Part shown: positions 11,013 through 44,704 of the stretch, one piece after another | How positions within the stretch are numbered: position 1 is the first letter of the stretch | Layout: each line of letters opens with the position of its first letter | Assembly (NCBI RefSeq): GCF_000708675.1 | Contig: NZ_JELR01000005.1 | Span: 62,001 to 126,000 of the forward strand | Origin: Microbulbifer sp. HZ11 | Lineage (GTDB): Bacteria > Pseudomonadota > Gammaproteobacteria > Pseudomonadales > Cellvibrionaceae | Direction: 5' to 3' | Length of the DNA: 64,000 bases | Made by a program: the position numbers and the translations under genes | The notes under the pieces: model-generated | Databases searched by the model: none | Seen by the model: only the letters and a program-made list of their open reading frames with translations | What the model was told of the DNA's origin: nothing

Positions 11013-11173
11013 CTTGCACCTGATGGTGACCTGGGTCGGCCCTCCCATCCCTCTACTCCTCCGCCGCCCCCAGCTTCTCCCCTCTCCTCCCCCCATGGGG
11101 GTGGAGGATAAGGACTTCGGGTAAGCCTAGGATGGCATTACTCACCATAACGATAAGTCCAAGGGAGAAGATG

Positions 11174-13960
11174 ATGAGTCTGACGAACAAACGATTCCGG
11201 CCGGCACTGCTGTCTGCAGCCATTGCCGCGTCCGTGACCTCCGTAGGCGTATTCGCCCAGGAAGAAGCCAGCACCAGCCTGGAAGAAATCACCGTTACCG
11301 GTTTCCGCAAAAGTCTGCAGGATTCCATCGGCACCAAACGCGATGCCAAGGGCGTAGTCGAGGCAATCTCTGCGGAAGACATCGGCAAACTGCCGGATTC
11401 CTCTATTGCCGAATCTCTTTCCCGCCTGCCGGGCCTGGCGGCCCAGCGCCTGGATGGCCGCGCCAGCAAGGTATCCATCCGTGGATTTGGTGAAAACGAA
11501 AGCGCGACCACCTTCAATGGCCGCGAGCAGGTATCCATCGGCGACAACCGCGGTGTGGAGTTTGACCTGTATCCCTCTGAAATCATGGCCGGTGTGACCG
11601 TCTACAAGACCCCGCAAGCAAGCCTCGAAGCGGAAGGCATTGCCGGTGTCATCGACATGCAGACCGTCAAACCTCTGGAGCGCGGTGAGCGTACCATCCA
11701 GTTCAATGCGCAAATGGAGCAGACCAGCTTTGGGAAGCTGAACCCGGACGGTGAAGACCAGGGTCAGCGCGCAACCTTCTCCTATATCGATCAGTTCGCC
11801 GATGACACCGTTGGTGTGGCTTTCGCCTATAACACCATGAGCTCTCCCAGTCAGGAAGAGCGCTGGAATTCCTGGGGTTACCCGGAGTTCGAAGTCGATG
11901 GTGAGAACTACTCCATCCTCGGCGGAGCCAAGCCTTTTGTGCGCTCCTCGGTTCTCGATCGCGACAGCGCCATGCTGGTTGTTGAGCTGCAGCCGAATGA
12001 AAAACTGCACACTACTTTCGACGCACTTTACGTTGACTTCGAAGATGAGCGCATTCTGCGCGGTATTGAAATTCCGTTTGCCTGGGGGCAGGGCAGCCTG
12101 TCTGCCGATTTCGCCGATGCGGACCCGGCTTCCGGCTTCCTGACCAGCGCTAATACGGATGGCCAGCGGGTTGTGGTGCGTAACGACCTGGAATCCCGCA
12201 AGGCAGAAATGAACTCTTTTGGTGTTAACACCAAGTACGATTTCACCGACACCATCCAGCTTGAATTTGATGCGAGCCACTCCAAGGTTGAACGCGAGAT
12301 CTGGAGCTTTGAAAGCTATTCCGGTACCGGCCGTGGCGACAGCGAAGGTGTTGCGGATAACCTGGGCTATACCTTCCGCCCCGGTAACACCGGCGCCCAG
12401 TTTACCCACGAGCTGGATTACAGCGACTTTAATCTGATTCAGCTCGGTGGTCCGCTGACCTGGGGCTGGAGCGCGGCGCTGAACGACAAGTACAACCTGG
12501 CGGGCACTGATTACGAAAACGCTGCTCAGGATGGCTTCCTCAACGCCCCGGAAATCGACGATGAGCTGACTCAGTTGAAACTGGCTGCCACCCAGCTGGT
12601 GGAGCTGGGACCGGTCAATGAAATCTCCTACGGTGTATCTTACCGCGACCGTGAGAAGGTGAAGCGCTCCGAGGGTTACTACATGACCCTGGCAAACTTC
12701 GATGGCACCACTGAAAACAGTACTCTGATTGTGCCGGAAGAGTATCGTCTGGGCAGCGCTTCCCTCGACTTCATCGGTATGGGTGACATGATTGCCTATG
12801 ATGCGGCGGCTATGCTGCGTGACGGTTACTACGACCTGACCGACGAATCCCTCACTGGCATTCAGCATCTGACCAAGTCCTACAGTGTTGCCGAAACCGT
12901 AACTTCCGCGTTTGCCCAGGCGAACTTTGAAAGCGAAGTGGCTGGCCTCGCGCTGACCGGTAATCTGGGAGCCCGCTACGTTTACACCGAACAGCAGTCC
13001 GAAGGATTCGGTGGCCAGGTGATCGACGGCCGGGTTGTTGCAGAAGCCACGGACCTCAGCCACGACTACGGACACTTTCTGCCTAGCCTGAACCTGGCTC
13101 TGGAACTGACCGATTCCCAGACTCTGCGCTTCGGTGCAGCGAAAACCATCTCCCGCGCACGCATGGATCAGATGAATGCGTCTGTGGAAGTAAGTTACAA
13201 CCAGACCCCGGATGCCAATGGCAACAACTGGAGCATCAGTGGTGGTAACCCGCTCCTGGAGCCGAAGGAAGCGGTGGGTGTAGACCTGTCCTACGAAAAC
13301 TACTTCAGCGAAGAGGGCTACTTCTCTGTTGCGGTGTTCTGGAAAGATCTGAAGCAATGGCACTTCGACGGTAACTACGAAGTCGATTTCTCAGGCGTTG
13401 CCGACCCAGCTACCGGCGAGATTCCTGAGAACTCCACCGCGACTGCCTACGGCATGATCAATGGCGGTGGCGGTACTCTGCAGGGCTACGAGCTGGCAGC
13501 GACTCTGCCGTTCAATATGTTCCACGAGAGCCTGGACGGTTTTGGTTTGCTGGCGAGCCACACCGGCCTGTCGTCCGATGTGAAAGATCCCAACGGAAAC
13601 GAATACGAACTGCCCGGCCTGTCTGAAAGTATTCAGACCATGACCGCTTACTACGACAATCGCGGATTGTCTGCGCGTGTCAGCATGCGTAAGCGTGATG
13701 ACTTTAAAGGCGAAGTTTACGGTGTTGGCTTCGACAGCGTGCAGGTAGATGTGGTGGGCGAAACCATTGTCGACGCACAGATCGGCTATGATTTCTCCGA
13801 GTCCAACATCAGCGGCCTCGACGGTCTGTCCGTATTCCTGCAGGGTCAGAACCTGACGGATGAGCCGTTCACCACGCTGAGCGGTGACAACGCCCTCCAG
13901 GTACGTGACTACCAGAGCTATGGTAAGACCTACCTGCTGGGCTTCAGCTACGAGCTGTAA
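11174..13960 (+). CDS. TonB-dependent receptor (TIGR01782-type)
   Basis: I chose ATG 11174 because GGGAG at 11163-11167 is six bases upstream; ATG 11171 is possible and 11132 unlikely. The 928-residue product has a signal peptide ending V-F-A-Q-E, then a TonB-box-like segment (E-E-I-T-V-T-G-F). A plug domain (about 50-165) has D-I-G-K-L-P-D-S-S-I-A-E-S-L and R-G-F motifs, followed by a long beta-barrel ending in an aromatic-rich strand. The I-x-G-V-I-D-M-Q-T segment is typical of the Caulobacter-type receptors used for sugar uptake. Together with the GH16/GH3 genes it probably imports beta-gluco-oligosaccharides across the outer membrane. Confidence 0.92.
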   Translation: MSLTNKRFRPALLSAAIAASVTSVGVFAQEEASTSLEEITVTGFRKSLQDSIGTKRDAKGVVEAISAEDIGKLPDSSIAESLSRLPGLAAQRLDGRASKVSIRGFGENESATTFNGREQVSIGDNRGVEFDLYPSEIMAGVTVYKTPQASLEAEGIAGVIDMQTVKPLERGERTIQFNAQMEQTSFGKLNPDGEDQGQRATFSYIDQFADDTVGVAFAYNTMSSPSQEERWNSWGYPEFEVDGENYSILGGAKPFVRSSVLDRDSAMLVVELQPNEKLHTTFDALYVDFEDERILRGIEIPFAWGQGSLSADFADADPASGFLTSANTDGQRVVVRNDLESRKAEMNSFGVNTKYDFTDTIQLEFDASHSKVEREIWSFESYSGTGRGDSEGVADNLGYTFRPGNTGAQFTHELDYSDFNLIQLGGPLTWGWSAALNDKYNLAGTDYENAAQDGFLNAPEIDDELTQLKLAATQLVELGPVNEISYGVSYRDREKVKRSEGYYMTLANFDGTTENSTLIVPEEYRLGSASLDFIGMGDMIAYDAAAMLRDGYYDLTDESLTGIQHLTKSYSVAETVTSAFAQANFESEVAGLALTGNLGARYVYTEQQSEGFGGQVIDGRVVAEATDLSHDYGHFLPSLNLALELTDSQTLRFGAAKTISRARMDQMNASVEVSYNQTPDANGNNWSISGGNPLLEPKEAVGVDLSYENYFSEEGYFSVAVFWKDLKQWHFDGNYEVDFSGVADPATGEIPENSTATAYGMINGGGGTLQGYELAATLPFNMFHESLDGFGLLASHTGLSSDVKDPNGNEYELPGLSESIQTMTAYYDNRGLSARVSMRKRDDFKGEVYGVGFDSVQVDVVGETIVDAQIGYDFSESNISGLDGLSVFLQGQNLTDEPFTTLSGDNALQVRDYQSYGKTYLLGFSYEL

Positions 13961-16728: not shown

Positions 16729-18483
16729 ATGAGAAAAATGAACGCACTGGCCGCGCTGATTTCCACCGCGGCGTTGACCATGAGCGCCTGTTCCGACGAG
16801 GGCGCCAGTTCAACCGCGGCAACCGCAGCGGAAGCCGCGGTATCTTCCGCTCCACAGACCGCCCCTGTCTTGACCGAGGTCAAGCAGGGTACCGTGGACC
16901 CCTTCTGGAACAACGCCACCATCTACTTCATGCTTCCGGACCGTTTCCACAACGGCAACCCGGACAATGACCTGTCTTACGGTCGCAAAGATGACGCGGC
17001 CCATCTGCGCGGTTTCCATGGCGGCGATCTGCGCGGTGTGATCCAGAAACTGGAAGAGGGTTATTTTACCGATCTGGGTGTTGACGCCATCTGGATGTCA
17101 CCGGTGATCGAAAACGTGCACGGTTACGATGAAGGGGACAAGCGCACCTACGCTTTCCATGGCTACTGGCCCAAAGATTGGACCAACGTGGATGCGAATT
17201 TTGGCACCGAGGAAGAGCTGGCGGAACTGATCCGGGTTGCTCGCAGCAAGGGTGTACGCATTCTGCTGGATGTCATCATCAATCACACCGGCCCGGTCAC
17301 AAGCGTTGACCCCCTGTGGCCGTCGGATTGGGTACGCACCAATCCCCAGTGTGACTGGAGCAGCTTTGCCCAGAACGTACAGTGCGCACTCACTGATAAC
17401 CTGCCGGATATTCTCACCGAGAGCGAAACTCCGGTAGCACTGCCGCCGCAGCTCACCGAAAAGTGGCAGCGGGAAGGGCGTCTCGAACAGGAAGTGGCCG
17501 AGCTGGACGCCTTCTTCGAGCGTACCGGATATCCGCGCGCGCCCAAGTACTACATCGTCAAATGGCTGACCGACTGGGTGCGTGAATATGGGGTGGACGG
17601 CTTCCGTGTCGATACCGTAAAACACGTCGAGCCGGAAATCTGGGCGATTCTGAAAAAGGAAGCCAGCCTCGCGCTGGACGAGTGGAAAGCGAACAACCCT
17701 GACGAAAAGCTGGATGATCGCGACTTCTTTATGGTGGGTGAGGTGTACCACTACGGCGTGAAGGATTTCGCCAGCAGCGATGGCCGCTTCTATGACTTTG
17801 GTGACCGCAAGGTAGATTTTTTCAACTACGGTTTCGATAGCCTGATCAATATGGGCTTTGCTGCGCACGCCGCGCAGGATATGGAAAGTATCTTCAGCGA
17901 ATACTCCAGTATTCTGCATGGTGGCGAGCTGTCAGGTGTATCGGTATTGAACTACCTCGGTTCTCACGATGACCACCACTCCTTCGACCGCGAGCGCAAA
18001 CAGGTGAAGAGTGCCGCGCTGAAACTGATGCTTGCGCCTGGCGCTGCACAGATTTACTACGGCGATGAAATTGCCCGCCCGATGATTGATGAACAGGCGT
18101 ACGGTGATGCTTCCATGCGCGTGCCCATGGACTGGAGCAGTATCCAACAGGCCAAAACCAGCGAAATTCTCCGTCACTGGCAGAAACTCGGCCAGTTCCG
18201 CCAGTCCCATCTGGCGGTAGGTGCCGGGGTGCATCAGCAGCTGAGTGAAGCACCCTATATTTTCTCCCGGACCCTGGATGACGACAGTGTCATGGTGGCA
18301 CTGGAGATGCCGGCCGGTGAAAAAACGGTGGACGCAGGCAAGGTCTTTGCAGAGGGAACCCTGGTAAAAGACTACTATTCCGGTGCCGAGGCTCGCGTGA
18401 AAAACGGTTCCCTCAGGTTTGATACCGAGTTCGACACCTTGCTTCTGGGCGCGGCGGAATCCACCGAGATTAGTGCGCGCTAA
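16729..18483 (+). CDS. GH13 alpha-amylase family lipoprotein
   Basis: The 584-residue product has a lipoprotein signal with lipobox M-S-A-C (Cys21). The GH13 barrel begins at W-N-N-A-T-I-Y-F-M-L-P-D-R-F. The catalytic set is complete: nucleophile D295 in G-F-R-V-D-T, acid/base E338 in V-G-E-V-Y, and the transition-state aspartate in S-H-D-D (D414/D415). An N-H motif (I-I-N-H-T) is also present. The length and the alpha-amylase C-terminal sheet fit a surface or periplasmic alpha-amylase acting on starch or maltodextrins. It is followed by a strong terminator. Confidence 0.92.
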   Translation: MRKMNALAALISTAALTMSACSDEGASSTAATAAEAAVSSAPQTAPVLTEVKQGTVDPFWNNATIYFMLPDRFHNGNPDNDLSYGRKDDAAHLRGFHGGDLRGVIQKLEEGYFTDLGVDAIWMSPVIENVHGYDEGDKRTYAFHGYWPKDWTNVDANFGTEEELAELIRVARSKGVRILLDVIINHTGPVTSVDPLWPSDWVRTNPQCDWSSFAQNVQCALTDNLPDILTESETPVALPPQLTEKWQREGRLEQEVAELDAFFERTGYPRAPKYYIVKWLTDWVREYGVDGFRVDTVKHVEPEIWAILKKEASLALDEWKANNPDEKLDDRDFFMVGEVYHYGVKDFASSDGRFYDFGDRKVDFFNYGFDSLINMGFAAHAAQDMESIFSEYSSILHGGELSGVSVLNYLGSHDDHHSFDRERKQVKSAALKLMLAPGAAQIYYGDEIARPMIDEQAYGDASMRVPMDWSSIQQAKTSEILRHWQKLGQFRQSHLAVGAGVHQQLSEAPYIFSRTLDDDSVMVALEMPAGEKTVDAGKVFAEGTLVKDYYSGAEARVKNGSLRFDTEFDTLLLGAAESTEISAR

Positions 18484-18901: not shown

Positions 18902-21900
18902 ATGATTTCTGCCCCTGTGAAAGCCGGAGTGCCACACTCCGTTGCTGCCGTTTGCCTGCGCGCTTGTGTCGCGTTGGCGTGTCTGCTCGCCCTGCCGCTC
19001 GGCGCCGGTGCGCAAACCTGGTCCGAGGCCTGGTTCCGCGGTACTCCCAACGACTGGGGTACAACGGCGATGACCTACGATGCCGCTGCCGGTGTCTGGG
19101 TGACGGAACAGACTTTTGCCGGCGACAACCCCCGCTTCAAAATCAGCCACTATCAGAACTGGAATGAGGCCTATCCCGGGGCGGACTACCAGGTGGTCAG
19201 TGGCCGCTACCGAATCACGTTTGATGATGTCAGTAAGGCAATCACCGTTTCAGAAGTCGTCGAACCTCCGCCCGCCGGGACATCAACCAGTCTCTGCTTT
19301 GATAACGCGCAGAACTATACCAGTCCTCAAATCTATTTCTGGAATCCGGCACCCGGCGGCAGCGTGAATAACCTGCCCGGTTGGCCCGGCGCAGCGATGA
19401 GCGAATCCGGTGCGCATTACTGCTACGACTTCTCTGCGCATTTGAACAACGGTGAAATGCCGGACTCGCTCAATGTCATTTTCAATGACAATGGCGGAGC
19501 GCAATCCGCTGACCTGCAGTACAGCGGAGACCCCTGTTATATCGGCAACCAATGGCAGCCGGCGGCGGCCTGCGGACTGGATGAGGAGCCTGGTGATGAC
19601 CTGCCGCCGAGCACCCGCCCGTTGCTGGTGCAGCCACTGAACTTTCCGATTACCGGCAATGTCTCTGGCGGCAATTACCGATTTGAGATCGCCTATCCGA
19701 ATCTGCAGGGGCAGTTTATGTCTCCGGTGATGGTGATTCCGGACGGCATCAATGACCTGCTGTATGTGGTGGACAAAACCGGCACCATTTTCGTATTCCC
19801 CAATCGCGAAGATGTGGCGCCCGGTGAAATTCGCGAGCTGCTGAATATCAACGGCGAGGTGCGCAACTACCACGAGCAGGGACTGCTGAGCATGGCCTTT
19901 GACCCTGGCTATGCCAGCAACGGTCATATCTACATCTATTACATTCACGGCACCGATGATAATGAGCGCGCACCGGATGGCAGTTACGGTGATGCGATTC
20001 TCGAACGCTGGACCCTAGACAACCCAAACGATCCGTCTCAGGCGCTGGCTTCTTCGCGCACGGAAATTCTGCGAGTTCCCCAGCGCGGGCCGGATCACAA
20101 GGGCGGAATGATGCAGTTCCACCCGGAAGACAATTATCTGTACCTGAGTATCGGTGACGGCGCCTACGGTCACAGCGCTACCATGAGTTATCCGGAAGAT
20201 CCGCGCACCAACAACGGTGCTCAGGAAACCGACAACCTGCTGGGTACCTTTATCCGTATCAAACCGCTGGAGCAGGCGGTTAATGGAAAATACTACGAAA
20301 TTCCCGCGGACAACCCGTTTGTAGGTGTCCCCGGCTTCCGCGAAGAAATCTGGTCTTACGGCCACCGCAACCCGTGGCGCTGGAGCTTCGATACCGAAGC
20401 GCCCTACACCCTGTGGGAAACGGAAGTCGGCCAGGCGGGATTTGAAGAAGTAAACCTGATCGAAAAAGGCAAAAACTACGGCTGGCCGGTGTGTGAAGGC
20501 ACCAACAACCGTGGTGATCTCGGTGGCGACCCCGGTAAAAACTGCAGTACCGATTTCGAGCCGCCGCGGGATGGCTACGCGCACCCGACCGGCTATTCGA
20601 TCATCGGGGGTGTGGTCTATCGCGGGAATGCTCTGCCGGGCCTGAGCGGAAACTTTGTGTTTGGCGATTACGTCACCAAGCGCATCTGGTCCATCGTGGA
20701 TGGCGAAGCCAAAGAACTGATCAGCGATGCCTTCCCGGAAAATATCGCCTCCTTCGGTACCGACCTGAGTGGCGATACGCTGCTGGTTTCCACTTACGGT
20801 GTGGAGTACGGCGGTCAGTCCACCATTTACAAGATCGTGGACGACGATGCGGAAGCGGCGGTCATCCCCGCGAAGCTCTCCGAGACCGGCCTGTTTGCAG
20901 ATCTTGAAACCCTGGAGCCGGTAAGCGGCGTTATTGAATATGCCTTGAATAGTGAAGGGTGGTTCGACGGGGCGGCACTGCGGCATTTTATTGCGGTACC
21001 GAACGACCAGCAGATCAACTTTGCTGAGACCGGAAAATGGGATTTGCCGGTCGGCACCGTACTGGTAAAACACCAGAGTATTTCCACCGCGGAGAATCCG
21101 CACAAACCGTTTACCACGTCCGTTCTGTTCCGGCAGGATACGGGCAAGTGGCAGGCGGCCAACTATTACTGGAACAGCGCTGGCACCGACGCTGACCTTG
21201 TAACCGAAACCCTCACAGTGATGGACGGCGGCATTGAAAACCGCCAGCGGGCCGTGCAGTCAGCCGCCGACTGCGGATCCTGCCATATCGGAAGTGGCAG
21301 TCGCGAGCCCCTGGCGGTGCACACCCGTCAATTCAATCGGGAATTCCAGTATGGTGAGACCGAAACCTCGGTGGCCAATCAGCTGGATGTGTTCAACACC
21401 ATCGCGCTGCTGTCGGAAGATATCGGTAGCGCCGACAGCCACGCCGCCTTCGTGAATGCAGCGGATACCAGTGCCGATCTCGATGAGCGCGCGCGCACTT
21501 ACCTTGAAACCAACTGCGCCCACTGTCATGCCAGTGGCTTTATGGATCTGCGCTACGACACCCCGCTCGCGGACATGCGTATCGTGAACGTGGAAACCAC
21601 CGGCGGCGCCGCCCGCTTGCGCCCCTTCGACCATGCCAACAGCCTGGTGTACATCTACCAGACTACCGATAACAACCGTATGCCCAAAGGCACCCGCTAT
21701 ACAAACCCGGTGGCGGAAGCGCTGTTTCGCGATTGGATCGACGGTGCCGGCCTGCAGCAGGTGGGGATTCAGCTGGATGCGGACAGCGATCGCCTGAATG
21801 GCGGCGATGCGCTGACGGTGCAGGTTTACTCTCTCTACGACAACGGTTTTACCGCGCCGGTACCCAATGCGCCGAGCGTAAGCTCCAGTAACAGCGATGT

Positions 21901-24559
21901 GCTCGCAGTGGAATCGGTGGGTGATGATCACTTTGTACTGCGCGCCGGCAATACCGGATCTACCAGTGTCACGGTGCAGCAGGGCGGTTTCAGCAGCCAG
22001 CTGACCATTGCCGTAACCTCTATTGATACCGCCATTACCGGACTGGAAATTGCGCCCCAGGGACAGTCTCTGGAAAGCAGTCGCCAGCTGGTTGCGGTGG
22101 GCATTCGTGCCGATGGCACCCGGGAAAATATTTTCGGGCAGGTCGGCTGGTCGGTGGCCAGTGGACCCGCCACCATCGACCAGAGCGGCCTGGTAACCCG
22201 TACCGGAGCCGGTGCCGTTACCGTGGAGGCGAACCTCGGAGAATTTACCGCGTCGCTGAATCTCGCCGAGGGTTTTGACGGCATCCGCCTGCGCTACGAC
22301 AACCCCGACAACTGGGCACAGGTCTACGTGCATCTGTGGGTAACTGTGGATGGTCAGGATCAGGGGTTGACGCAGTGGCCGGGGCTGCTGATGAGTGGAC
22401 CGGATACCGAGGGCTGGTGGACCCACTCGGTGGATCAGCAGGACCTGCACAATGGCCAGGTCAATCTGGTGTTCAACAGTGGCAACGGTCAGCAGACCGG
22501 TGACCAGCGGAACATCGGCGAGTCTTCCAGTTTTGTCGGCGGCGCCTGGGAACCCTGGACGCCGGAAGGGCCTGTTGGCGGCGACACATCGCGGGTTTCC
22601 GTGATCGGCGGCATCACGGCGGACGGCGGGCGCGATTACGCCATCGGCAGCGTGATCAGCGTCAACGCCGACGATGCGCCACTGGGCACTGTATTTGGCG
22701 GTTGGAGCGGCGATGCTGCGCCCTATATCGTCAGCGACCCGTCGCTGCCCCAGGTGCAGCTGCTGATTCCACAGCACGACCTTTCCCTGGTGGCACTCTT
22801 CCCCAGCGCAACCAACGAGTACGAGGCGGGGCAGAATTTTTACGCGGCCCAGTGTGCAAACTGTCACGGTGACCAGGGCCAGGGCGCGGTTGCCCAGACG
22901 CTGGCCGGCAGTGGCGCCAACTGGCAGTTGGGCGAGCTGACGCAATATATCGAAGACTTTATGCCAATGGACGCCGCCGCCAGTTGTACCGGCGACGAGG
23001 CCGGTGCCTGTGCCTTTGAAGTGGCGAGGCTGATTGTGGACGAAGCCTGGGACAGCGGCAGCTGCAGTGGCAGCGACTGCGATGGCAGCAATCTGGATCA
23101 GCGCAACCTGCGCCTGCTCACCCGTGAGGAATACCTCAACAGCGTGCGGGATATTTTCGCAATCGACTTCGACAGTTCACTGATGAGCTCGGTACCCGCC
23201 GACGGTCGCTACCGCAATTTCGACACCGCTTCCTACCTCTCCGCGGACAACGACCGCACCCTGGGGTATGAAATGGTGGCCGAGCAGGTCGCGGACCTCG
23301 CCATCGCGCAGGCCGGTTTCATGAATCTGGTGAGTGGTTGTGGCGATGTGCCGTGTGTGGTGGATACCCTCGGCTTCCGCCTGTTCCGTCGACCGCTGCA
23401 GAGTGCGGAAATCACCCGCTACGCAGGACTTTACCAAAGCGACGATGACGGCCGCCTGGCGCTGCAGGCGATGCTGATGTCACCGCACTTTATGTATCGT
23501 TCCGAGCTCGGTGTGCTGGACAGCGAGAGCGGCCTCTACCGGCTCGATAATTACGAAGTGGCAACACTGCTGTCCTACACCTTCTGGGCCACGACACCGG
23601 ATGACACGCTACTGCTGGCCGCCACCGAAGCGGGCTTCGATATTGCCGTACAGGTGGATCGCCTGCTGGCGGACCCCCGTGCAGAACGCGGTCTGCGCCG
23701 CTTTATCAGCGGCTGGCTGATCAACAACCAGTATCCCTTCCCGGCAATCACCGATACCGATCTGGTGGCGGCGTTTAAGGAAGAAACCGTCGGCTTTGTG
23801 CTGGAGAACATTCGCTCGAATTCTGCCTTCGGCGAATTGCTCTCCGCCAACTACACCTGGGCCAACGGCGATCTCGCCGCGCATTACGGCCTGGATGCGA
23901 GCGGCGGCGACTGGGCCATGCGCACCTTCCCCGCGGGCGATCCCCGCAGTGGCAGCGGTCTGCTCGGCCACGGCAGCTTCCTCGCCTCCCGTACCAGCAC
24001 CGTTAACCCGGCGCCGATCAAGCGGGGCGTGTACGTGCGCGAAGTGCTGATGTGCCAGGAGTTCCCGCCTCCTGCTGCTGCGGACTTCAATGTGGTATTT
24101 GAAGATACCGACAGCAACCGCGAAGCCACTGCCCGTCACACGTCCGATCCGGCCTGTGCCGCCTGCCACCAGTTTATCGACGGTGTCGGCTTCGGTTTTG
24201 AGCGCTTCGGCAGCGATGCCCTGTATCGCACCATCGAAACCATCGGTACCGGTGAACAGCGCGAGATTGACGACAGCGGCAGTATCAAGAGTCTGTACAC
24301 CCCCGCGACGGTGATGGATCCGACCAGCCCCAGTTACGACTTCTACTCGGTGCCGGAACTGGCGGGCCTGATTGCCGGTAGTGACCAGGGCGAGGCGTGT
24401 TTTGCCCGTCAGTTCTACCGCTATGTGGTTGGGCGTGAAGAGGGTGCCAGTGACGATGTGATCATTCACTCCACCAGTGAAGACCTGCGCAATGGCGGTG
24501 GCATGCGCGATATGTTGCGGGCACTGGTTCTGTCCGACGCTTTCACCTTGCGCCGTTAA
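18902..24559 (+). CDS. Giant secreted starch-binding-like / glucose dehydrogenase-like / multihaem / DUF1592 protein
   Basis: The product has 1885 residues from ATG 18902 with GGAG eight bases upstream. A Sec signal (cleavage near A-G-A-Q) leads to a W-F-R-G-T-x-N-D-W starch-binding-like module (37-115) and a CBM26-like module (125-225). A glucose/sorbosone-dehydrogenase-like propeller follows (about 246-648; E-Q-G-L-L-S-M-A-F and G-x-R-N-P-W-R-W). Then come haem sites C791-G-S-C-H and C872-A-H-C-H, a BIG2-like domain (1045-1120) and a second CBM26-like module (1120-1215). A cytochrome c (C1318-A-N-C-H) precedes DUF1587/1592/1588/1585 modules (1390-1885), which contain C1752-A-A-C-H. The next gene, DUF1552, is the usual partner of DUF1592 proteins. 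I infer an oxidase or dehydrogenase bound to starch; the reaction and electron acceptor are unknown. The length and fusion are unusual. Confidence 0.88.
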   Translation: MISAPVKAGVPHSVAAVCLRACVALACLLALPLGAGAQTWSEAWFRGTPNDWGTTAMTYDAAAGVWVTEQTFAGDNPRFKISHYQNWNEAYPGADYQVVSGRYRITFDDVSKAITVSEVVEPPPAGTSTSLCFDNAQNYTSPQIYFWNPAPGGSVNNLPGWPGAAMSESGAHYCYDFSAHLNNGEMPDSLNVIFNDNGGAQSADLQYSGDPCYIGNQWQPAAACGLDEEPGDDLPPSTRPLLVQPLNFPITGNVSGGNYRFEIAYPNLQGQFMSPVMVIPDGINDLLYVVDKTGTIFVFPNREDVAPGEIRELLNINGEVRNYHEQGLLSMAFDPGYASNGHIYIYYIHGTDDNERAPDGSYGDAILERWTLDNPNDPSQALASSRTEILRVPQRGPDHKGGMMQFHPEDNYLYLSIGDGAYGHSATMSYPEDPRTNNGAQETDNLLGTFIRIKPLEQAVNGKYYEIPADNPFVGVPGFREEIWSYGHRNPWRWSFDTEAPYTLWETEVGQAGFEEVNLIEKGKNYGWPVCEGTNNRGDLGGDPGKNCSTDFEPPRDGYAHPTGYSIIGGVVYRGNALPGLSGNFVFGDYVTKRIWSIVDGEAKELISDAFPENIASFGTDLSGDTLLVSTYGVEYGGQSTIYKIVDDDAEAAVIPAKLSETGLFADLETLEPVSGVIEYALNSEGWFDGAALRHFIAVPNDQQINFAETGKWDLPVGTVLVKHQSISTAENPHKPFTTSVLFRQDTGKWQAANYYWNSAGTDADLVTETLTVMDGGIENRQRAVQSAADCGSCHIGSGSREPLAVHTRQFNREFQYGETETSVANQLDVFNTIALLSEDIGSADSHAAFVNAADTSADLDERARTYLETNCAHCHASGFMDLRYDTPLADMRIVNVETTGGAARLRPFDHANSLVYIYQTTDNNRMPKGTRYTNPVAEALFRDWIDGAGLQQVGIQLDADSDRLNGGDALTVQVYSLYDNGFTAPVPNAPSVSSSNSDVLAVESVGDDHFVLRAGNTGSTSVTVQQGGFSSQLTIAVTSIDTAITGLEIAPQGQSLESSRQLVAVGIRADGTRENIFGQVGWSVASGPATIDQSGLVTRTGAGAVTVEANLGEFTASLNLAEGFDGIRLRYDNPDNWAQVYVHLWVTVDGQDQGLTQWPGLLMSGPDTEGWWTHSVDQQDLHNGQVNLVFNSGNGQQTGDQRNIGESSSFVGGAWEPWTPEGPVGGDTSRVSVIGGITADGGRDYAIGSVISVNADDAPLGTVFGGWSGDAAPYIVSDPSLPQVQLLIPQHDLSLVALFPSATNEYEAGQNFYAAQCANCHGDQGQGAVAQTLAGSGANWQLGELTQYIEDFMPMDAAASCTGDEAGACAFEVARLIVDEAWDSGSCSGSDCDGSNLDQRNLRLLTREEYLNSVRDIFAIDFDSSLMSSVPADGRYRNFDTASYLSADNDRTLGYEMVAEQVADLAIAQAGFMNLVSGCGDVPCVVDTLGFRLFRRPLQSAEITRYAGLYQSDDDGRLALQAMLMSPHFMYRSELGVLDSESGLYRLDNYEVATLLSYTFWATTPDDTLLLAATEAGFDIAVQVDRLLADPRAERGLRRFISGWLINNQYPFPAITDTDLVAAFKEETVGFVLENIRSNSAFGELLSANYTWANGDLAAHYGLDASGGDWAMRTFPAGDPRSGSGLLGHGSFLASRTSTVNPAPIKRGVYVREVLMCQEFPPPAAADFNVVFEDTDSNREATARHTSDPACAACHQFIDGVGFGFERFGSDALYRTIETIGTGEQREIDDSGSIKSLYTPATVMDPTSPSYDFYSVPELAGLIAGSDQGEACFARQFYRYVVGREEGASDDVIIHSTSEDLRNGGGMRDMLRALVLSDAFTLRR

Positions 24560-24576
24560 AGCTACTGCGCGTGCGC

Positions 24577-24656
24577 CTGGCAGCCACCGGCGGTGCTCGG
24601 AATGCTCATGTATAAAACATACATTCCGCCACCTCCGCTCCGGCGGTGACTGCCAG
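24577..24656. repeat. Long imperfect palindrome between the redox gene and its DUF1552 partner
   Basis: Outer arms CTGGCAG.CACCG and CGGTG.CTGCCAG enclose an inner GGAATG...CATTCC repeat, giving a potential 80-nt stem. It lies in the 148-nt spacer of what looks like an operon. It may be a dispersed repeat or an element that tunes relative expression. Confidence 0.65.
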
Positions 24657-24707
24657 CCACCCGCTCGCTACGCTTTAATAGCCTCTTAATAATGAGGGAT
24701 AACAATA

Positions 24708-26141
24708 ATGAAATTCTTCAATAAATTCGGATTTACCTCGGTCAATGAATCCAGCAGCCGCTCGCGCCGTAAATTTCTGCGCAATCTGGCGCAGGCGGGC
24801 GTGCTGCTGCCGCTGGCGGGGAGTATGCTCGGCCAGCGTGTATTCGCGCAAACCGGTGGCGCGCAGCGGGTACTGTTTCTCTACTACCCCAACGGCGTAG
24901 TGCCCTACAACTGGGTACCCCAGCAGGGGCCGGGTAGTATCGGTGGCAGCCAGGAACTGAGTTTTGGCCTGGGGCCTTTGTCGTCCTGGCACAACCGCCT
25001 GATCATCTTACAGAACCTGACCCTGGATATCGGCGATGGTGCCGGTGCCCACTACAACGACATGCGCGGAATTCTTACCGGCAATAATCAGATCGGGTAT
25101 GGCAGTGCCAGTATCGACCACTTGATCGCGGAGCAGTTGGGCAATGAGGGTGTGTTGAGTCTGGGGGTGCGCACCGGCAATCGATCCGACATCATGATTT
25201 CCAAACCGCGCAACGTGGAATCCACAGCGCGCCCCATCCCGAATAATGATCCGGCGGACGCTGCACAGAAACTGGCGGTGGGCATATCCGGTGGAGGGGT
25301 CGGCGGTGGCACAGGCGGCAATGACCCCGACAAGCAGGCCTATTACGATGCGATTCTGGATGACTTCGACAGTCTCGCCGACGTCACTTTGGAAAATGCA
25401 CAGAGGGATAAGCTCACTCTGCACGAAAATGCGCTGAAGCGGTTGCGGGACCTGGCCGGAAACCAGGTAGGCGAATGCAGTTTTAATACCAACGTAATGA
25501 GTGACCCTTATTACGCATCCTCCAGCCCGTTATCGCCCACCGAGTGGCAGATGTTCCCGCATCTGGCCCGCGCCCAGGTGGACAACATCGTCGGCGCTTT
25601 TTCCTGTGGCCTGCACCGCGTCGCCACCCTGCAGCTTTCCAAAGGCGATGAAAACGGCAATCTGGTGAACTACTCCTATGATGAATGCTGGCAGATGGCT
25701 CAGGACGCCATCAGCCAGGGTGTTCAGCACAGCAACGGCAGCGGCCCCGTTGGCCCCATGACCCGTTGGTATAACGAATTTGCCAGCCACAGCGCCTCCC
25801 ACCGTCCCGGCGATGTACCCCACACCGCCCAGGTGCGCTGGTATCACTCACTCCTCGCCTACACCCTGCAGCAACTGGAAAATAAAGGTCTGCTGGATGA
25901 CACCCTTGTGGTGATGTTCAGCGAAGTCGGCGACGGCTCCAAACACGGCGGCGCTGCCGGCGCCGTCACCCTGGCCGGAGGCGCCGGCGGCGCCCTGCAG
26001 ATGGGGCGTATCATCAACTGTGGGGATGGCATCAACAACGGCCAGCGGATCTACGGCACCCACCAGCTGTTCGGGGATATCGCACGCTATATGGGGGTGA
26101 ATTCTTTGCCGGAAAATCACTGGTCGGGTGGGGTGGTTTAA
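24708..26141 (+). CDS. Tat-exported DUF1552 protein
   Basis: The 477-residue product starts at ATG 24708, eight to nine bases after GAGGG. The twin-arginine motif S-R-R-K-F-L-R at about residues 20-26, with a hydrophobic stretch ending V-F-A-Q, predicts Tat export, so the protein probably folds before export. The body matches DUF1552, found almost always beside DUF1592/DUF1588 proteins; Y-P-N-G-V-V-P, an H-N-R-L-I-I-L segment and a C-terminal G-T-H-Q-L-F are visible. The family relates distantly to sulfatase or alkaline-phosphatase-like folds. Catalysis has not been shown that I know of. Pairing with the giant redox protein suggests a joint extracytoplasmic complex acting on alpha-glucan. Confidence 0.88.
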   Translation: MKFFNKFGFTSVNESSSRSRRKFLRNLAQAGVLLPLAGSMLGQRVFAQTGGAQRVLFLYYPNGVVPYNWVPQQGPGSIGGSQELSFGLGPLSSWHNRLIILQNLTLDIGDGAGAHYNDMRGILTGNNQIGYGSASIDHLIAEQLGNEGVLSLGVRTGNRSDIMISKPRNVESTARPIPNNDPADAAQKLAVGISGGGVGGGTGGNDPDKQAYYDAILDDFDSLADVTLENAQRDKLTLHENALKRLRDLAGNQVGECSFNTNVMSDPYYASSSPLSPTEWQMFPHLARAQVDNIVGAFSCGLHRVATLQLSKGDENGNLVNYSYDECWQMAQDAISQGVQHSNGSGPVGPMTRWYNEFASHSASHRPGDVPHTAQVRWYHSLLAYTLQQLENKGLLDDTLVVMFSEVGDGSKHGGAAGAVTLAGGAGGALQMGRIINCGDGINNGQRIYGTHQLFGDIARYMGVNSLPENHWSGGVV

Positions 26142-27287: not shown

Positions 27288-29180
27288 TTATCGGGAGAGC
27301 TTCAGAATTTGCCCGGAGAGCGATGGCGCGGTTAGCGACACCTGCGCGGACAAATCATCGGCAACCACCAGTTCTGTCCCGCCGTCGCGGAGCGCATTGG
27401 TAAGGGTGTACTTACCGGCCGCTAGCTGCCACTCCTCAACCAGTGCTTTTGGTAGCTGCAGGGTAGTGGTGGCGTCGCTGTCGGCGAAGTTGGCAATCAC
27501 CAGCAGCTGATCGTCCCCTGCCCACCGGGCGAAGCTGTAGAGCTTGTCTGTATAGGTGTCGCTCTGTTCCCTGTTGTAGCGGTGCAGGTCGAGGTATTCC
27601 CCGGTGAGCGCCGGACTCTGGCGGGAGAAGGTCAGCAACTTGCCGTAGAAGTCGCGCAGGGATTGTTCCGATTCACTGAGTTTTTCGCTGTTGAACTGGC
27701 CTTCGTTATTCCAGCGGCGAATGGTAGGGACTGACCAGTAGTCGAAGATAGTGGTGCGGCTGGCCTTGCCGAAGCCCGCGTCGCCGGCGCCCGGTTCACC
27801 CAGCTCTTGGCCGAAGTAGAGCAATGTCGGTGCGCCGCTGATGGTGGCGGAGACCACCATGGCGGGAATGCCGGCTTTGGCGTTGCCGGCGAATTCCGGA
27901 CTGGCGATACGCTGTTCGTCGTGGTTTTCCATAAAGCGCAGCATATTGTCCTCAATACCGCTCAGGCTCTCCTGAATGTCCACCAGAGGATCAGTGCCGG
28001 ACTTGCCTTCCATTACCGCGCGGATGGCGTCGTAGGTACCCACCTTGTCGTACAGGTAATCCATTTTCCCCAGTTGGATATAGTCGCGGTAAAGATCCGG
28101 CTGATAAATTTCCGCCAATAACAGCGCGTCCGGGTTCTGCATTTTGATGGAGGAATTCAGGTAGCTCCAGAATTCCACCGGCACCATGCCAGACATGTCG
28201 TAGCGGAAGCCGTCCACGCCGAAGGCGAGCCAGTAGTCGGTGATCTCACGGAATTTTTCCCAGCTGTTGGGAACGTCTTTGTCTGCCCAGAAAGCCGCGT
28301 GTGCGCGGTAGTCTTTCTGCGCAAAATCTGCCGGGAGTTCGGGGAAATCGTGGCTGCCATCCGGGCGCACACCGAAATTGATTTTAACTGTTTCGTACCA
28401 GTCCCCCTGAGCCGGTTGCGGCGCGCGGCTGCCATTGCCGGTCCATTTTGCCGGCACTTCCTCAAAGGTGCCGTCAATCAGAGGGTGAGCTTCGCCGTTC
28501 AGTGGAAGGTAACCGTCTTCCGCCACCGGCACTTGGAAGGGTTCGCCGGGAACATAGTAAAAGTTGTTGTCGCGGGCGTAGGCAACACTGGTGTTGTCGT
28601 CCACCCCGAAATCGCGTACGCCCTCGGGCTTGGCGAGAGACTGATAATTGCGTGCAACATGGTTGGGAACTATGTCGATCAGAACCTTGAGGCCCGCTTC
28701 GTGTGAGCGTTCGATCAGCGCCTTGAATTCCTCCAGCCGCTTGGATGGGTCATTGGCAAGGTCCGGGTTCACACTGTAGTAGTCCTTCACCGCATAGGGA
28801 GATCCCGCGCGCCCCTTGATCACATCCGGATCGTCATTACTGATGCCGAACGCAGTGTAATCACGCACCACTGCATGGTGCAGGGAACCGGTGTACCAGA
28901 TGTAGTCGGCTCCCAGTGCGCGAATTTCTTCCAGTGCTTTGGGTGTGAAGTCACTGAATTTTCCAACACCGTTTTCCTCAATGGTACCCCAGGGCTTGTT
29001 GGTGGGGTTGGTGTTGCCGAACAGACGCGGGAGCACCTGGTAGATTACCGGTTTGCCGTTACTTTTAATTTCTGCGGCTGCTGCGGGCTGTGCATCGGAA
29101 TCTTCCGATTTCTGAGTGCAGGCGCTGAGTGTGCCGGCGGCAATGGAAGTGGCCAAAAACAGGTGGATAAATTTTTTCAT
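27288..29180 (-). CDS. GH13 alpha-amylase family lipoprotein
   Basis: The 630-residue product has a lipoprotein signal with lipobox L-S-A-C (Cys21). The GH13 core starts with K-P-V-I-Y-Q-V-L-P-R-L-F. It contains the invariant set: nucleophile aspartate in D-G-F-R-Y-D-M, acid/base glutamate in L-L-A-E-I-Y, and the third aspartate in M-E-N-H-D-E-Q-R. V-P-N-H is present too. The I-W-Y-T-G-S-L-H segment marks it as a subtype different from the other three GH13 proteins here. It is the last gene of a minus-strand run after GH31 and the SusA-like GH13. It probably hydrolyses maltodextrins at the membrane surface. Confidence 0.9.
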   Translation of the reverse strand: MKKFIHLFLATSIAAGTLSACTQKSEDSDAQPAAAAEIKSNGKPVIYQVLPRLFGNTNPTNKPWGTIEENGVGKFSDFTPKALEEIRALGADYIWYTGSLHHAVVRDYTAFGISNDDPDVIKGRAGSPYAVKDYYSVNPDLANDPSKRLEEFKALIERSHEAGLKVLIDIVPNHVARNYQSLAKPEGVRDFGVDDNTSVAYARDNNFYYVPGEPFQVPVAEDGYLPLNGEAHPLIDGTFEEVPAKWTGNGSRAPQPAQGDWYETVKINFGVRPDGSHDFPELPADFAQKDYRAHAAFWADKDVPNSWEKFREITDYWLAFGVDGFRYDMSGMVPVEFWSYLNSSIKMQNPDALLLAEIYQPDLYRDYIQLGKMDYLYDKVGTYDAIRAVMEGKSGTDPLVDIQESLSGIEDNMLRFMENHDEQRIASPEFAGNAKAGIPAMVVSATISGAPTLLYFGQELGEPGAGDAGFGKASRTTIFDYWSVPTIRRWNNEGQFNSEKLSESEQSLRDFYGKLLTFSRQSPALTGEYLDLHRYNREQSDTYTDKLYSFARWAGDDQLLVIANFADSDATTTLQLPKALVEEWQLAAGKYTLTNALRDGGTELVVADDLSAQVSLTAPSLSGQILKLSR

Positions 29181-29364: not shown

Positions 29365-31824
29365 TTATTGGGTAACGGTCAGGCTCTGGGATGGGCCGGA
29401 CCAGTCGAATTTCACATGCAGGGTCTTGGCGCGCTTGTTGTACCAGGCCGTATTTTCGGCCAGCGCACTTTCCTTGCGCACCAGCGCCAGCGCCTGTTCA
29501 CCCTGCCGTACCGCAGAGGGTTGCGCTACGTTATGTAATATCAGCTCGATACTGCGAGTTTCGGGTGCGCCGGTATAGCCGTTGCCTTCACGATCAAAGC
29601 GGAATGCGATACCGGATTCACTACGTTCACTGGAAAACATCAGCTTTTCGTACTGGCCCTTGGCGTAGGCATCCGCGGTAACGCCATCGTCCTCGTAGAT
29701 ATAGCCGCTGGAGCGAGGTGCGGATTCGTGAGCGTAGTAATCCAGACGCAGGTTCGCGCTGGAGTAATCGCGGGTATTGTTCAGACCGGACACCGTTGGG
29801 ATAAAGGCGCCGGCACGGACCAGAACCGGAATGGTTTCGAGGTCCACATCAATTTTCGCCAGGTCCCCACCGTACTGGTTATCGTTCCAGTAATCGAACC
29901 AGATACCACCGGGCAGCTGAACCGCTACTTCATCGACATCTTCGGAAGTGACCGGTGCTATCAGAAAATCATTGCCCCACAGGTAGGCGTCCTTGTTATC
30001 CATCAGCGCCAGGTCGTTTTCGTTTTCGAAAAACAGCGGGCGCATCAGCGGCATGCCGGTCTGGCTGTTTTCAAACGCCAGGGTGTAGTTGTAGGGCAGC
30101 AGCTGATAGCGGAGCTTGACGAACTCGCGGGTGATATTGCGGGTTTTGCGGTCGTGGAACACGGGCTCCGGGGCGATGTGTTCCTGAGCGTGGGGGCGAT
30201 ATACCGGCTGGAAAGCACCGTATTGCAGCCAGCGGATATACAGTTCCCGGTCGAACTTTTCACCACCGGCAAAGCCGCCCAGATCCGAGTGGGTGTAGCC
30301 GAATCCGAGCAGACCCATTTGCAGAGAGAGCTCTACCTGCGGCTGCAATCCACCCCATTCCCGGGCCACATCGCCGGTCCATGGAATCATGCCGTAGCGT
30401 TGCGAGCCCGGGAAGCCGGCACGCATCATGATAAATGGACGCTGTTCCGGGCTGTCTGCCTTTTCGTTTTCGAACAGCATCTGGGCCCAGCGGTGTCCGT
30501 AGGCGTTGTGAATCTCATCCGCCATACCGATAGCGTGCACTGTGTCTGCGGGGTGGACCTCGGGTTCGCCGAGATCGCCCCACCAGCCGGAAACGCCCTG
30601 TTCTTTCAGGTCTTTGTAGATTCCCCAGAACCAGTCGCGACCGTCCTCGGAGAAAACGTCAATCAGGCCGGTATTGCCGAAATAGAATTCAAACTGCTTG
30701 GCGTTGCCGACGAGATTTTTTGCCAGCGCATTACTTGCCACCGCGTCGCTCCAGCGCTCGGAGGTGGAGAGCACAAACGGTTCGGTAACGAGGATGGTTT
30801 CAATTCCCTGCGCGCGCAGGTCGGCCATCATGTCCACCGGTGTCGGGAATGCGTTTTTATCCCACGCCAGGTTGCCCATATGGCCCTTGATATCCGGCCC
30901 GAACCAGTAAAGATCCAGTACCAATGCATCCAGCGGGAAATCTTCCTCGCGGAATTTTTCCACCACATCGCGCACTTCCTGCTCTGTGCGGTATCCGAAG
31001 CGGGAAGCAAAGTTGCCCAGCGCCCAACGCGGAGGCATCGGCTGCCGGCCGGTGACATCCACATAATTCTCGATCAGCTGCGGGTAGGTTTCTCCGGCCA
31101 CCACGATATAACTGGTGCGGCCCGCCTGAGCTTCAAACTGCAGTACGTTTGCCTCGCTGGCCCCCAGGTCCATAGCACCGGTGGCACTGTTGTCGAACAG
31201 CAGGATGTACTTGTTGCTGCTCATAACCGCCGGCAGCCCGAAGTACATCTGGTCCGACTCGGTGGTATACCCGTAATGGGCTTTGTTGTAGAGCGGCAGG
31301 CGGTGGCCGCGACGGTCCATGCCCAGTACTCGCTGGCCGCCGCCAATCAGTTTTTCATTTTCACTCAGAGTAAAGCGAAAACCGCGCATGGTCTGGTTGG
31401 CAAAGAAGCCGTGTTCTTCACTCAGTAGTGGCTTGCCGTCGTGCAGGTATTCGATGGTAAATGGCGACTTGTGGATAACTGCTGTGAGATCGCCGAGGGC
31501 ATACTGTAGTGCGTCCTGGGAAACGCTCAGTTGCGCCGCAACATCACGCTTGAGTTGATCGGCGCGGGCAAACGACGGCAGTTGCTTGATGCCGTCACGC
31601 TGGTAATGCACTTCCAGTGCGCTGGGGTTGACCGGGGTCAGGGTTACCTGACTGTCGCTGGTTTCGATCACCAGTTGGTTATCGACAAGCTGGTGGCTGC
31701 GATATTCCCGCACAGGTTCTGCGAGCGCTGTTTGCGCGGCGGTGGCGAGGAGGCTGGGTAGCAGGGTAGCCAGCCCGAGTTTTTTCAGCAGCCTCGTGGG
31801 CTTCTTGGAATTTACTACTTTCAT
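29365..31824 (-). CDS. GH31 alpha-glucosidase
   Basis: The frame is open to 31998, but that part translates a dispersed palindromic repeat. ATG 31824 gives a good Sec signal ending A-Q-T-A-L-A-E. The 819-residue product has the GH31 N-terminal beta-sandwich and a barrel with nucleophile aspartate in W-W-G-D-L-G-E-P-E. A second aspartate in H-S-D-L-G-G-F is the acid/base position. R-P-L-F-F-E-N and the C-terminal beta domains are also present. It should act in the periplasm or outside the cell, releasing glucose from maltooligosaccharides. A transglucosidase role cannot be excluded. It lies between two GH13 genes on the same strand. Confidence 0.9.
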   Translation of the reverse strand: MKVVNSKKPTRLLKKLGLATLLPSLLATAAQTALAEPVREYRSHQLVDNQLVIETSDSQVTLTPVNPSALEVHYQRDGIKQLPSFARADQLKRDVAAQLSVSQDALQYALGDLTAVIHKSPFTIEYLHDGKPLLSEEHGFFANQTMRGFRFTLSENEKLIGGGQRVLGMDRRGHRLPLYNKAHYGYTTESDQMYFGLPAVMSSNKYILLFDNSATGAMDLGASEANVLQFEAQAGRTSYIVVAGETYPQLIENYVDVTGRQPMPPRWALGNFASRFGYRTEQEVRDVVEKFREEDFPLDALVLDLYWFGPDIKGHMGNLAWDKNAFPTPVDMMADLRAQGIETILVTEPFVLSTSERWSDAVASNALAKNLVGNAKQFEFYFGNTGLIDVFSEDGRDWFWGIYKDLKEQGVSGWWGDLGEPEVHPADTVHAIGMADEIHNAYGHRWAQMLFENEKADSPEQRPFIMMRAGFPGSQRYGMIPWTGDVAREWGGLQPQVELSLQMGLLGFGYTHSDLGGFAGGEKFDRELYIRWLQYGAFQPVYRPHAQEHIAPEPVFHDRKTRNITREFVKLRYQLLPYNYTLAFENSQTGMPLMRPLFFENENDLALMDNKDAYLWGNDFLIAPVTSEDVDEVAVQLPGGIWFDYWNDNQYGGDLAKIDVDLETIPVLVRAGAFIPTVSGLNNTRDYSSANLRLDYYAHESAPRSSGYIYEDDGVTADAYAKGQYEKLMFSSERSESGIAFRFDREGNGYTGAPETRSIELILHNVAQPSAVRQGEQALALVRKESALAENTAWYNKRAKTLHVKFDWSGPSQSLTVTQ

Positions 31825-31884
31825 CGTCTTCGCTTTTTGTATCTGTAATTTTAATTCGGGTTTACGGTGCTCGCTCCGCAACTC

Positions 31885-31953
31885 CGTCATGCCGGACTTG
31901 ATCCGGCATCCAGCTGTGCTGGATCTGGATACCGGATCAAGTCCGGTATGACG
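31885..31953. repeat. 69-nt inverted repeat (CGTCATGCCGGACTTGATCC type)
   Basis: The arms CGTCATRCCGGACTTGATCC are nearly perfect inverses around a short centre. This is a well-known dispersed intergenic repeat type in proteobacteria. It separates the SusA-like GH13 gene from GH31 and inflates the GH31 reading frame. Confidence 0.75.
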
Positions 31954-31969
31954 AAGTGAGAGGGTTTCG

Positions 31970-33844: not shown

Positions 33845-33997
33845 CGCGGTCACCTGTTTTTGACTTGGGCGCTTAAGTCGGTCGGACTATTCGCACTTTT
33901 TTTCACCATTGTGCCCGCACAGCCCACCCTTGTTATCCCCCTCCCTGCAGGGGGAGTCCCGGGTCCCCGTCACTCCGGCCTGGCGCGCATTTTTACC

Positions 33998-34033: not shown

Positions 34034-34129
34034 TCGCCAGTATGTACAGGAGCCCGTATTAGTGCGGATTTTCAGTGAAAAATTCGCCGCGGGTGCGCTC
34101 AAGAAAAATAATCAACCGAGATGATGAAA

Positions 34130-39996: not shown

Positions 39997-39998
39997 GG

Positions 39999-44220: not shown

Positions 44221-44253
44221 ACCGCCCTCCTTGCTTTGTCATTGGAAAAATGG

Positions 44254-44676: not shown

Positions 44677-44704
44677 ATAGTCTACCGGGCCCCTGATATG
44701 TGGG

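Follow-up and report, generated by a model that had tools for sequence, protein, structure and literature searches.

Two adjacent genes of Microbulbifer sp. HZ11 are described here, one encoding an 1885-residue protein with haem motifs and starch-binding-like modules and the other a 477-residue DUF1552 protein. They lie in a window of 64,000 nt (NZ_JELR01000005.1, 62,001 to 126,000, forward strand), whose positions serve as coordinates throughout. The pair is a real and well-formed system with a core common to Cbp2D, and we consider it somewhat better than an even bet that it is the alpha-glucan version of the Cbp2D/Cbp2E machine of Cellvibrio japonicus. The preliminary description of this DNA had presented the pair as an undescribed system of its own. 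This view is not supported in that form, because the C-terminal half of the larger protein is the Cbp2D module and a named gene, cbp26A, is apparently its homologue in C. japonicus. What is new is a third gene in the Cbp2D unit, the conserved set of histidines and the predicted sulfatase-like fold of DUF1552, and the logic of head swapping.

Both open reading frames (ORFs) were recovered with the coordinates, strand and lengths given earlier, and the DUF1552 gene, with an N-terminus of the twin-arginine (Tat) type, does lie directly after the larger one. Pfam domains of both proteins were counted when their score exceeded the gathering cut-off. In the 1885-residue protein, the glucose/sorbosone dehydrogenase (GSDH) domain reached 142.2 bits (cut-off 25), Cytochrome_CBB3 39.9 bits and the carbohydrate-binding module (CBM) of family 26 (PF16738) 105.9 bits in two stretches (cut-off 28.1). 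The PSD set consists of PSD4/DUF1592 (84.5 bits), PSCyt3/DUF1588 (78.5), PSD3/DUF1587 (51.9) and PSD2/DUF1585 (36.4), together with PSD5/DUF1595 (47.5), which was missing from the preliminary domain list. Exactly four CxxCH motifs are present, at residues 791, 872, 1318 and 1752. The Pfam and motif scan hence returned every element that had been proposed, namely starch-binding-like modules, GSDH-like propeller, four haem motifs and DUF1587/1592/1588/1585, and the hidden Markov model check leaves no room for a lack of CBM or GSDH similarity. In the genome search, the two CBM26 stretches scored 69.8 and 53.2 bits and were the only CBM26 matches in the entire genome. The region after the propeller covers positions 2-312 of the 314 of TIGR03806 (SO2930 di-haem), yet it scores under the NCBI cut-off (Table 1).

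The resemblance to Cbp2D is based on gene content as well as on structure. The cytochrome at residues 1306-1369 matches both 7b21, the X183 domain of Cbp2D, and 8q1v, an X183 domain of Teredinibacter turnerae. In the genome holding the C. japonicus proteins (G214), a gene for 1122 residues, the length reported for Cbp2D (PMC12542752), matches the Cbp2D X183 structure at 202.7 bits. It encodes CBM2, YceI, cytochrome c and DUF1587/1595/1592/1588, with a CBM2-YceI gene (Cbp2E type) upstream and a DUF1552 gene downstream. DUF1587 had already been assigned to Cbp2D in a figure legend (Fig. 1, PMC8981238), and the X132 domain of the Cbp2D authors probably corresponds to the DUF1592/1588 region. Cbp2D and the 1885-residue protein therefore have in common the X183 cytochrome, the DUF1587/1595/1592/1588 module, an N-terminal CBM and a DUF1552 gene directly downstream. 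Nevertheless, Cbp2D carries CBM2 instead of CBM26, YceI (X158) instead of GSDH and di-haem region, and two CxxCH motifs instead of four, and has a Cbp2E gene upstream. No Cbp2E-type gene was found upstream of the 1885-residue gene among the neighbours scanned, nor any YceI gene among 20 neighbours of the pair.

The arrangement around Cbp2D was followed in 20 Cellvibrio stretches with frames of 1108-1198 residues, taken from a larger number of such stretches, and in three further ones (L138, L140, L073). All 27 strong PSD genes in these 23 stretches are of the Cbp2D type; DUF1552 follows directly in 27/27 and a Cbp2E-type gene precedes 25 of them, one of the two exceptions (L151) being at a contig end. 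In one Cellvibrio genome (G225; L149 and L152), four Cbp2D-type genes, each with Cbp2E and DUF1552, form a repeated array within ~31 kb. Cbp2D and Cbp2E were reported to be important for growth on insoluble cellulose, more than the lytic polysaccharide monooxygenase (LPMO) Lpmo10B, and the authors suspect an unknown cutting mechanism (PMC12542752). In the main text of that paper, the two are treated as a possible heterodimer with no third part named, and a term search of this main text, supplements not covered, found no mention of a DUF1552 gene beside Cbp2D. The same source describes engineered E. coli with C. japonicus cellulase genes and cbp2D/E that failed to grow on filter paper, again with no DUF1552 gene mentioned in that account (PMC12542752). 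A Cellvibrio CBM2-DUF1592 protein was observed in a lignocellulose-degrading community, in a report that states no function for it in the part available (PMC6004670). No literature joining DUF1592/DUF1552 pairs to Cbp2D was found in our searches.

Other relatives share parts of this layout. The C. japonicus protein P0008, whose truncated source name reads 'Carbohydrate binding protein, putative, cb', is apparently Cbp26A, because one CBM26 protein is counted among the Cbps of this organism (PMC12542752). It has the Pfam domain set of the 1885-residue protein, a 74% identical DUF1552 neighbour (P0135), a GH31 (glycoside hydrolase, GH) gene upstream and a TonB-receptor gene nearby, but is longer (2277 residues) and has Ser-rich linkers. 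No functional study of cbp26A was found in the literature searched. TERTU_3803 of T. turnerae, compared by description only, likewise combines CBMs, a GSDH-like pf08450-X173 and X183 and X132 cytochromes, but carries CBM10/CBM2 and X122, and its propeller did not bind pyrroloquinoline quinone (PQQ; PMC10916295). Freshwater Verrucomicrobia proteins share the PSCyt3/PSD domains, usually beside a family of unknown genes, and some have CBMs; these are of other types, and no starch module or GSDH is named in the description available (PMC5615132).

Conservation in the C-terminal half is strong. All of 33 sequences share Cys 1480, 1485, 1718 and 1833 as well as the haem motif at 1752, haem motifs 3 and 4 are invariant in an alignment of 19 sequences (A3), and the X183 methionine is retained in 27/33, four of the remaining six being gaps. 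A distal Met or His ligand for the PSD haem is not conserved among the 33 diverse sequences (His at 1746 in 21/33, the rest mixed), so an open site is possible; this could be a hint and proves nothing. The PSD model built from these 33 sequences (pLDDT 85.4, pTM 0.79) gave no Foldseek match against the PDB at E 0.001. The Foldseek VIA rows reach only model residues 11-92 and 113-284, the best of them covering the cytochrome part, and later residues were barely probed.

These proteins are regularly paired with DUF1552. Across 194 genomes of the order, a DUF1592 gene lies just upstream, on the same strand, of 37 of the 40 listed DUF1552 matches; the three others are in G052, in G142 (C90) and, below cut-off, in G004. 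Named loci are those 24, of 39, whose match runs from residue 127 or earlier to residue 1872 or later; L106, L107, L110 and L112, which are cut, and L113-L123, relatives of the PSD part only, stand outside this count. DUF1552 follows the nearly whole CBM26-type protein in 24/24 named loci, so that the two-gene pair proposed earlier is borne out. A DUF1552 frame was also present downstream of 53 of 60 PSD frames (L078 and L091 being the same locus and L112 counted twice). Among the other seven, five have a tblastn DUF1552 match (L113, L114, L115, L116, L120) and two are at the stretch edge (the first frame of L072, and L107).

In Marinagarivorans algicola (G118; L067-L085), 20 PSD/DUF1552 pairs are scattered through the genome, and ten of the PSD proteins were scanned, of which four carry malectin, one CBM35 and one CBM2 with YceI. 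Between the two partners, distance matrices are correlated with r 0.77, whereas 20000 permutations gave 0.45 at most, and nearest neighbours agree in 14/20; the pair thus moves and diversifies jointly. Locus L091 has a further DUF1552 copy downstream of the pair (20283-20894). It is shortened, shows 77% identity over 179 residues and is followed by frames that we read as transposase parts. HZ11 itself has a paralogous pair (L008, 4437-8657 and 8679-10004), in which CBM2 modules, GSDH, cytochrome and PSD are followed by DUF1552 and an Lcl_C gene; no recognisable GH gene was seen nearby, and one neighbour was read as parC.

The DUF1552 protein matches DUF1552/HXXSHH (PF07586) at 132.4 bits against a gathering cut-off of 30 and, given its nearly invariant twin arginine, is predicted to be Tat-exported. 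Its predicted model (pLDDT 80.8, pTM 0.80) points to a sulfatase/alkaline-phosphatase fold: the best 50 structural matches, judged by their titles and by what we take to be their classification, all belong to that superfamily. The position of the sulfatase nucleophile, placed by motif reading rather than by residue-level structural alignment, is held by His115, a histidine in 99/99 rows (97 distinct). The SDHG sulfatase motif aligns with SEVG, in profile matches that are weak (E 0.046 and 0.082). Neither the Cys/Ser/Thr nucleophile nor the Asp metal ligands of the superfamily were found in DUF1552 by these comparisons, and in the aligned sequences the sulfatase residues are exchanged for a nearly invariant set of four histidines, H115, H361, H365 and H413. 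DUF1552 thus departs from sulfatases and alkaline phosphatases at the nucleophile and SDHG positions, on which grounds an ordinary sulfatase was rejected.

The link to alpha-glucan was examined in the family of CBM26-type proteins. The homologue search gave 145 relatives, the best 120 of which were examined; CBM26 is carried by the top 105 of these, and four of the 120 have a GH13 amylase domain within the same polypeptide. They come from Microbulbifer, Cellvibrio, Gilvimarinus, Marinagarivorans, Catenovulum, Colwellia, Corallincola and others, with identities of 79-91% in the named Microbulbifer loci and of 63% in C. japonicus P0008, where 87% of the query is covered. With our own GH13 profile, GH13 was found in the flanks of 5/5 Microbulbifer and 3/3 Gilvimarinus named loci, two of the latter also having GH15. 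Seven of these eight genomes, with 3.7-4.7 Mb each, were searched and hold between 4 and 13 GH13 matches, so that about 3 to 7% of 26-kb stretches would be expected to contain a match by chance; the eight loci, however, stem from two lineages and are not eight independent events. The pair's TonB-dependent receptor has a tblastn match in 4/5 named Microbulbifer loci, one of them only 32% identical. Along with the match to the CBM26 of Amy13K (6b15) and the CBM26 scores above cut-off, the GH13 domains within the same chain and the GH13 genes in the flanks support the earlier proposal that the CBM26 modules would aim the protein at alpha-glucan. A second CBM26-type group (L096-L105, L108, L109, L111, L124) is 41-54% identical and is paired with a more distant DUF1552 type of its own, whose identity is about 25-28%; in the loci inspected, its flanking genes look like housekeeping rather than GH genes.

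The reading that we favour starts from a constant core, in which an X183 cytochrome and the PSD haem module (DUF1587/1595/1592/1588, here with 1585) stand on one chain and a Tat-type DUF1552 protein accompanies it. This core would carry two exchangeable parts, a glycan head and an electron-entry module: CBM26 modules and a GSDH propeller with di-haem relay in HZ11, CBM2 and YceI (X158) in Cbp2D. The 1885-residue protein would be secreted and dock on starch through CBM26. The propeller may be the point of entry for electrons, supplied by malto-oligosaccharide reducing ends if it is active, and the electrons would then pass from the haems at 791 and 872 to the X183 haem and on to the PSD haem. 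The latter would exchange electrons with the His-rich site of DUF1552, and this exchange may support a redox attack on the bound glucan alongside the GH13/GH31 enzymes.

Several points weigh against this proposal. Whereas domains, haem motifs, pairing, shared core and conservation were computed here, we infer that the protein is secreted and docks, in which direction electrons flow, that DUF1552 holds a metal and what chemistry the substrate undergoes, and likewise that the four DUF1552 histidines form a single site. In the first count of the 194 genomes, 18/55 DUF1592 matches had no DUF1552 (37/55 were paired): nine in G118, one in G142 and eight weak partial ones (21.9-31.5 bits) in six other genomes and G105. 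That count scored 11/26 DUF1552 candidates of G118; on recheck, three of the unpaired neighbours there are DUF1552 by Pfam and all 20 listed PSD genes have DUF1552 by our own profile. The co-diversification in G118 would also follow if pairs merely duplicate as units. In T. turnerae, X183 domains failed to drive an LPMO (PMC10916295). Four of the ten M. algicola PSD proteins scanned have no glycan module, GH13 was found near the PSD genes in 0/19 of its stretches, and by our reading of the neighbours its 20 PSD genes lie mostly beside housekeeping genes. GH13 was likewise found in the flanks of 0/16 remaining named loci, that is, 16/24 in total are without it, some flanks being short (far under 10 kb at L092, L097, L099, L103, L104 and L124). 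The survey of glycan-gene linkage suggested earlier thus gave a divided answer: linkage holds in Microbulbifer and Gilvimarinus, where the idea of a pair never linked to glycan genes was rejected, and a general tie to starch or GH genes fails, as does, on the M. algicola data, the idea that each PSD gene sits in a glycan locus. Finally, cbp26A was reported to be up-regulated, relative to glucose, on mannans, xyloglucan or starch and to be among the genes raised on cellulose (PMC12542752) and on fungal necromass (PMC11497827), which fits growth on polysaccharides and is not starch-specific. In a starch RNA-seq paper, it is absent from the main text, supplements not covered (PMC10714805).

A PQQ-type sugar dehydrogenase would explain part of the data differently, the propeller oxidising the reducing ends of starch fragments and the haems only carrying electrons off to a respiratory acceptor or an LPMO. 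In 107 family members covering the region (14 more distant proteins were counted apart), His399, Arg489 and Asn490 are kept in 107/107 and Asp398 in 103/107, and two haems follow directly after the propeller. Arg489-Asn490 align with an Arg-Asn pair of soluble glucose dehydrogenase (sGDH) that we take to be Arg228/Asn229, but the best stretch aligned with sGDH stops short of Lys377/Arg406/Arg408, the C-terminal PQQ ligands. Moreover, the position of sGDH Gln76 is Glu in 107/107, that of Pro248 is Gln in 106/107 and that of Gln168 varies. In the profile search against the PDB, the propeller scores equally with hedgehog-interacting protein, which is not known to be an enzyme, and with sGDH; the solved AA12 domains gave no match by phmmer (E 0.01) or profile (E 0.001). 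His399 aligns with His144 of sGDH, for which a catalytic role is described (PMC6881789). The pyranose dehydrogenase CcPDH of Coprinopsis cinerea (CBM1-AA12-AA8) has the same layout of glycan module, six-bladed propeller and cytochrome and was reported to drive LPMOs (PMC6881789), but it has a b-type haem, PQQ was seen in its crystal, and it is not among the PDB sequence matches of the propeller. AA10 LPMO matches are present in 8/8 family genomes (short and weak in G118), yet the two LPMOs of HZ11 carry GbpA_2 or CBM2 and no starch module. Two further results count against both the dehydrogenase and an active propeller in the reading we favour: PqqE was above cut-off in 0/8 family genomes, as opposed to 40/194 in the order, and the GSDH-like domain of the similar T. 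turnerae protein showed no binding of PQQ and no oxidation of glucose (PMC10916295). PQQ use is doubtful on these two grounds, though PQQ could be taken up. The propeller proposed earlier therefore stands as a domain, whereas a working dehydrogenase is possible and not to be assumed, and we hold it unlikely that the system is mainly such an enzyme.

Electron export, in which the starch-docked protein hands on electrons, of cellular origin or released by oxidation of sugar, to an acceptor on the outside and the glycan is an anchor only, would suit four haem motifs on a single, presumably secreted, chain as well as the PSD proteins devoid of glycan module in M. algicola, and long-distance electron delivery is also weighed by the Teredinibacter authors (PMC10916295). 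It appears quite improbable, as the glycan heads recur and differ (CBM26, CBM2, CBM35, malectin), some chains include a glycosidase domain, and loss of Cbp2D was reported to impair growth on insoluble cellulose (PMC8981238; PMC12542752). The remaining possibility is a protein that mainly binds, CBM26 and an inactive propeller making a starch scaffold whose redox parts are relics or serve in stress defence. The lost PQQ-site residues and the likeness to hedgehog-interacting protein agree with it, but neither the invariant Cys of haem motifs 1 and 2 (107/107), nor the conservation of motifs 3 and 4 and of the X183 methionine, nor a DUF1552 frame or tblastn match wherever the stretch had room is expected of relics, and we give this possibility a very poor chance.

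The pair is embedded in a GH13/GH31 locus, as had been stated, with four GH13 genes and one GH31 gene among the neighbours (Table 1). A weak similarity (E 0.037) between residues 51-108 and the N-terminus of the GH13 protein encoded at 34121 weakly supports an N-terminal module common to the 1885-residue protein and this neighbouring amylase.

Table 1. Features of the pair and of its locus in the 64,000-nt window
Feature	Coordinates	Strand	Basis
Putatively secreted multi-haem protein, 1885 residues, homologue of apparent C. japonicus Cbp26A	18902..24559	+	ORF list, Pfam, homologue search
Signal peptide, Sec type, ~residues 1-37 (predicted)	18902..19012	+	read from sequence
Weak X25/pullulanase-like module, residues 51-108	19052..19225	+	15.2 bits, below the cut-off of 27
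CBM26 module 1, residues 132-206	19295..19519	+	Pfam, genome search
GSDH propeller, residues 278-598	19733..20695	+	Pfam, profile vs PDB
TIGR03806/SO2930-like di-haem region, residues 656-947	20867..21742	+	155.9 bits, cut-off 313.3; two CxxCH inside
Haem c motif 1, CGSCH, residues 791-795	21272..21286	+	both Cys 107/107, His 106/107
Haem c motif 2, CAHCH, residues 872-876	21515..21529	+	both Cys and last His 107/107
CBM26 module 2	22295..22507	+	genome search; profile match to Amy13K CBM26 (6b15, E 5.5e-7)
X183-type cytochrome c, residues 1306-1369, haem motif 3 CANCH at 1318	22817..23008	+	8q1v E 3.8e-11; 7b21 E 6.6e-7
PSD module DUF1587-1595-1592-1588-1585, residues 1404-1881, haem motif 4 CAACH at 1752 (24155-24169)	23111..24544	+	Pfam; motif 4 in 33/33
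DUF1552/HXXSHH protein, 477 residues, predicted sulfatase/alkaline-phosphatase fold	24708..26141	+	Pfam, structure model
Twin arginine R20, R21 of Tat-type signal SRSRRKFLRN	24765..24770	+	46/47 aligned sequences; the other a gap
TonB-dependent receptor, part of the pair's locus	11132..13960	+	domain scan
GH13 gene immediately upstream of the 1885-residue gene	16729..18483	+	domain scan
GH13 gene	27288..29180	-	domain scan
GH31 gene	29365..31998	-	domain scan
GH13 gene, cyclomaltodextrinase-like	31970..33853	-	domain scan
GH13 gene	34121..36397	+	domain scan

Elsewhere in the window, a gene at 554-3442 (+) joins F5/8-C and CBM56 modules to a di-haem oxidoreductase (DHOR) near GH16 and GH3 genes and looks like a second glycan-aimed cytochrome, as if for beta-1,3-glucan through another cytochrome family. 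Poly-N-acetylglucosamine (pga) genes for a PgaD-like protein, a glycosyltransferase, a deacetylase and a PgaA barrel occupy 36447-42050 (-). From 44000 to 64000, the G+C fraction (GC) drops to 0.43-0.49 from 0.55-0.61. An integrase, two IS110 transposases, DUF4917 and a Cap4-type nuclease gene with an AAA ATPase gene next to it give this part the appearance of a mobile or defence island.

The comparison joins two questions, how Cbp2D works and what the widespread DUF1592/DUF1552 pairs do, because Cbp2D itself belongs to the DUF1592 proteins, a DUF1552 gene accompanies it in 27/27 cases examined and the same core also occurs with a starch head. It points to an overlooked DUF1552 partner gene beside the cellulose machine Cbp2D and hence to a concrete candidate part. 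It is a speculative and rather unlikely idea that DUF1552 is a new metal-dependent redox enzyme, with a four-histidine site on a sulfatase-like fold, and is coupled to a PSD haem protein by which it is taken to a chosen polysaccharide. If it were true, the X183-PSD and DUF1552 core would be a second bacterial redox attack on polysaccharides besides LPMOs, in which the head could be exchanged to suit starch, cellulose or another glycan.

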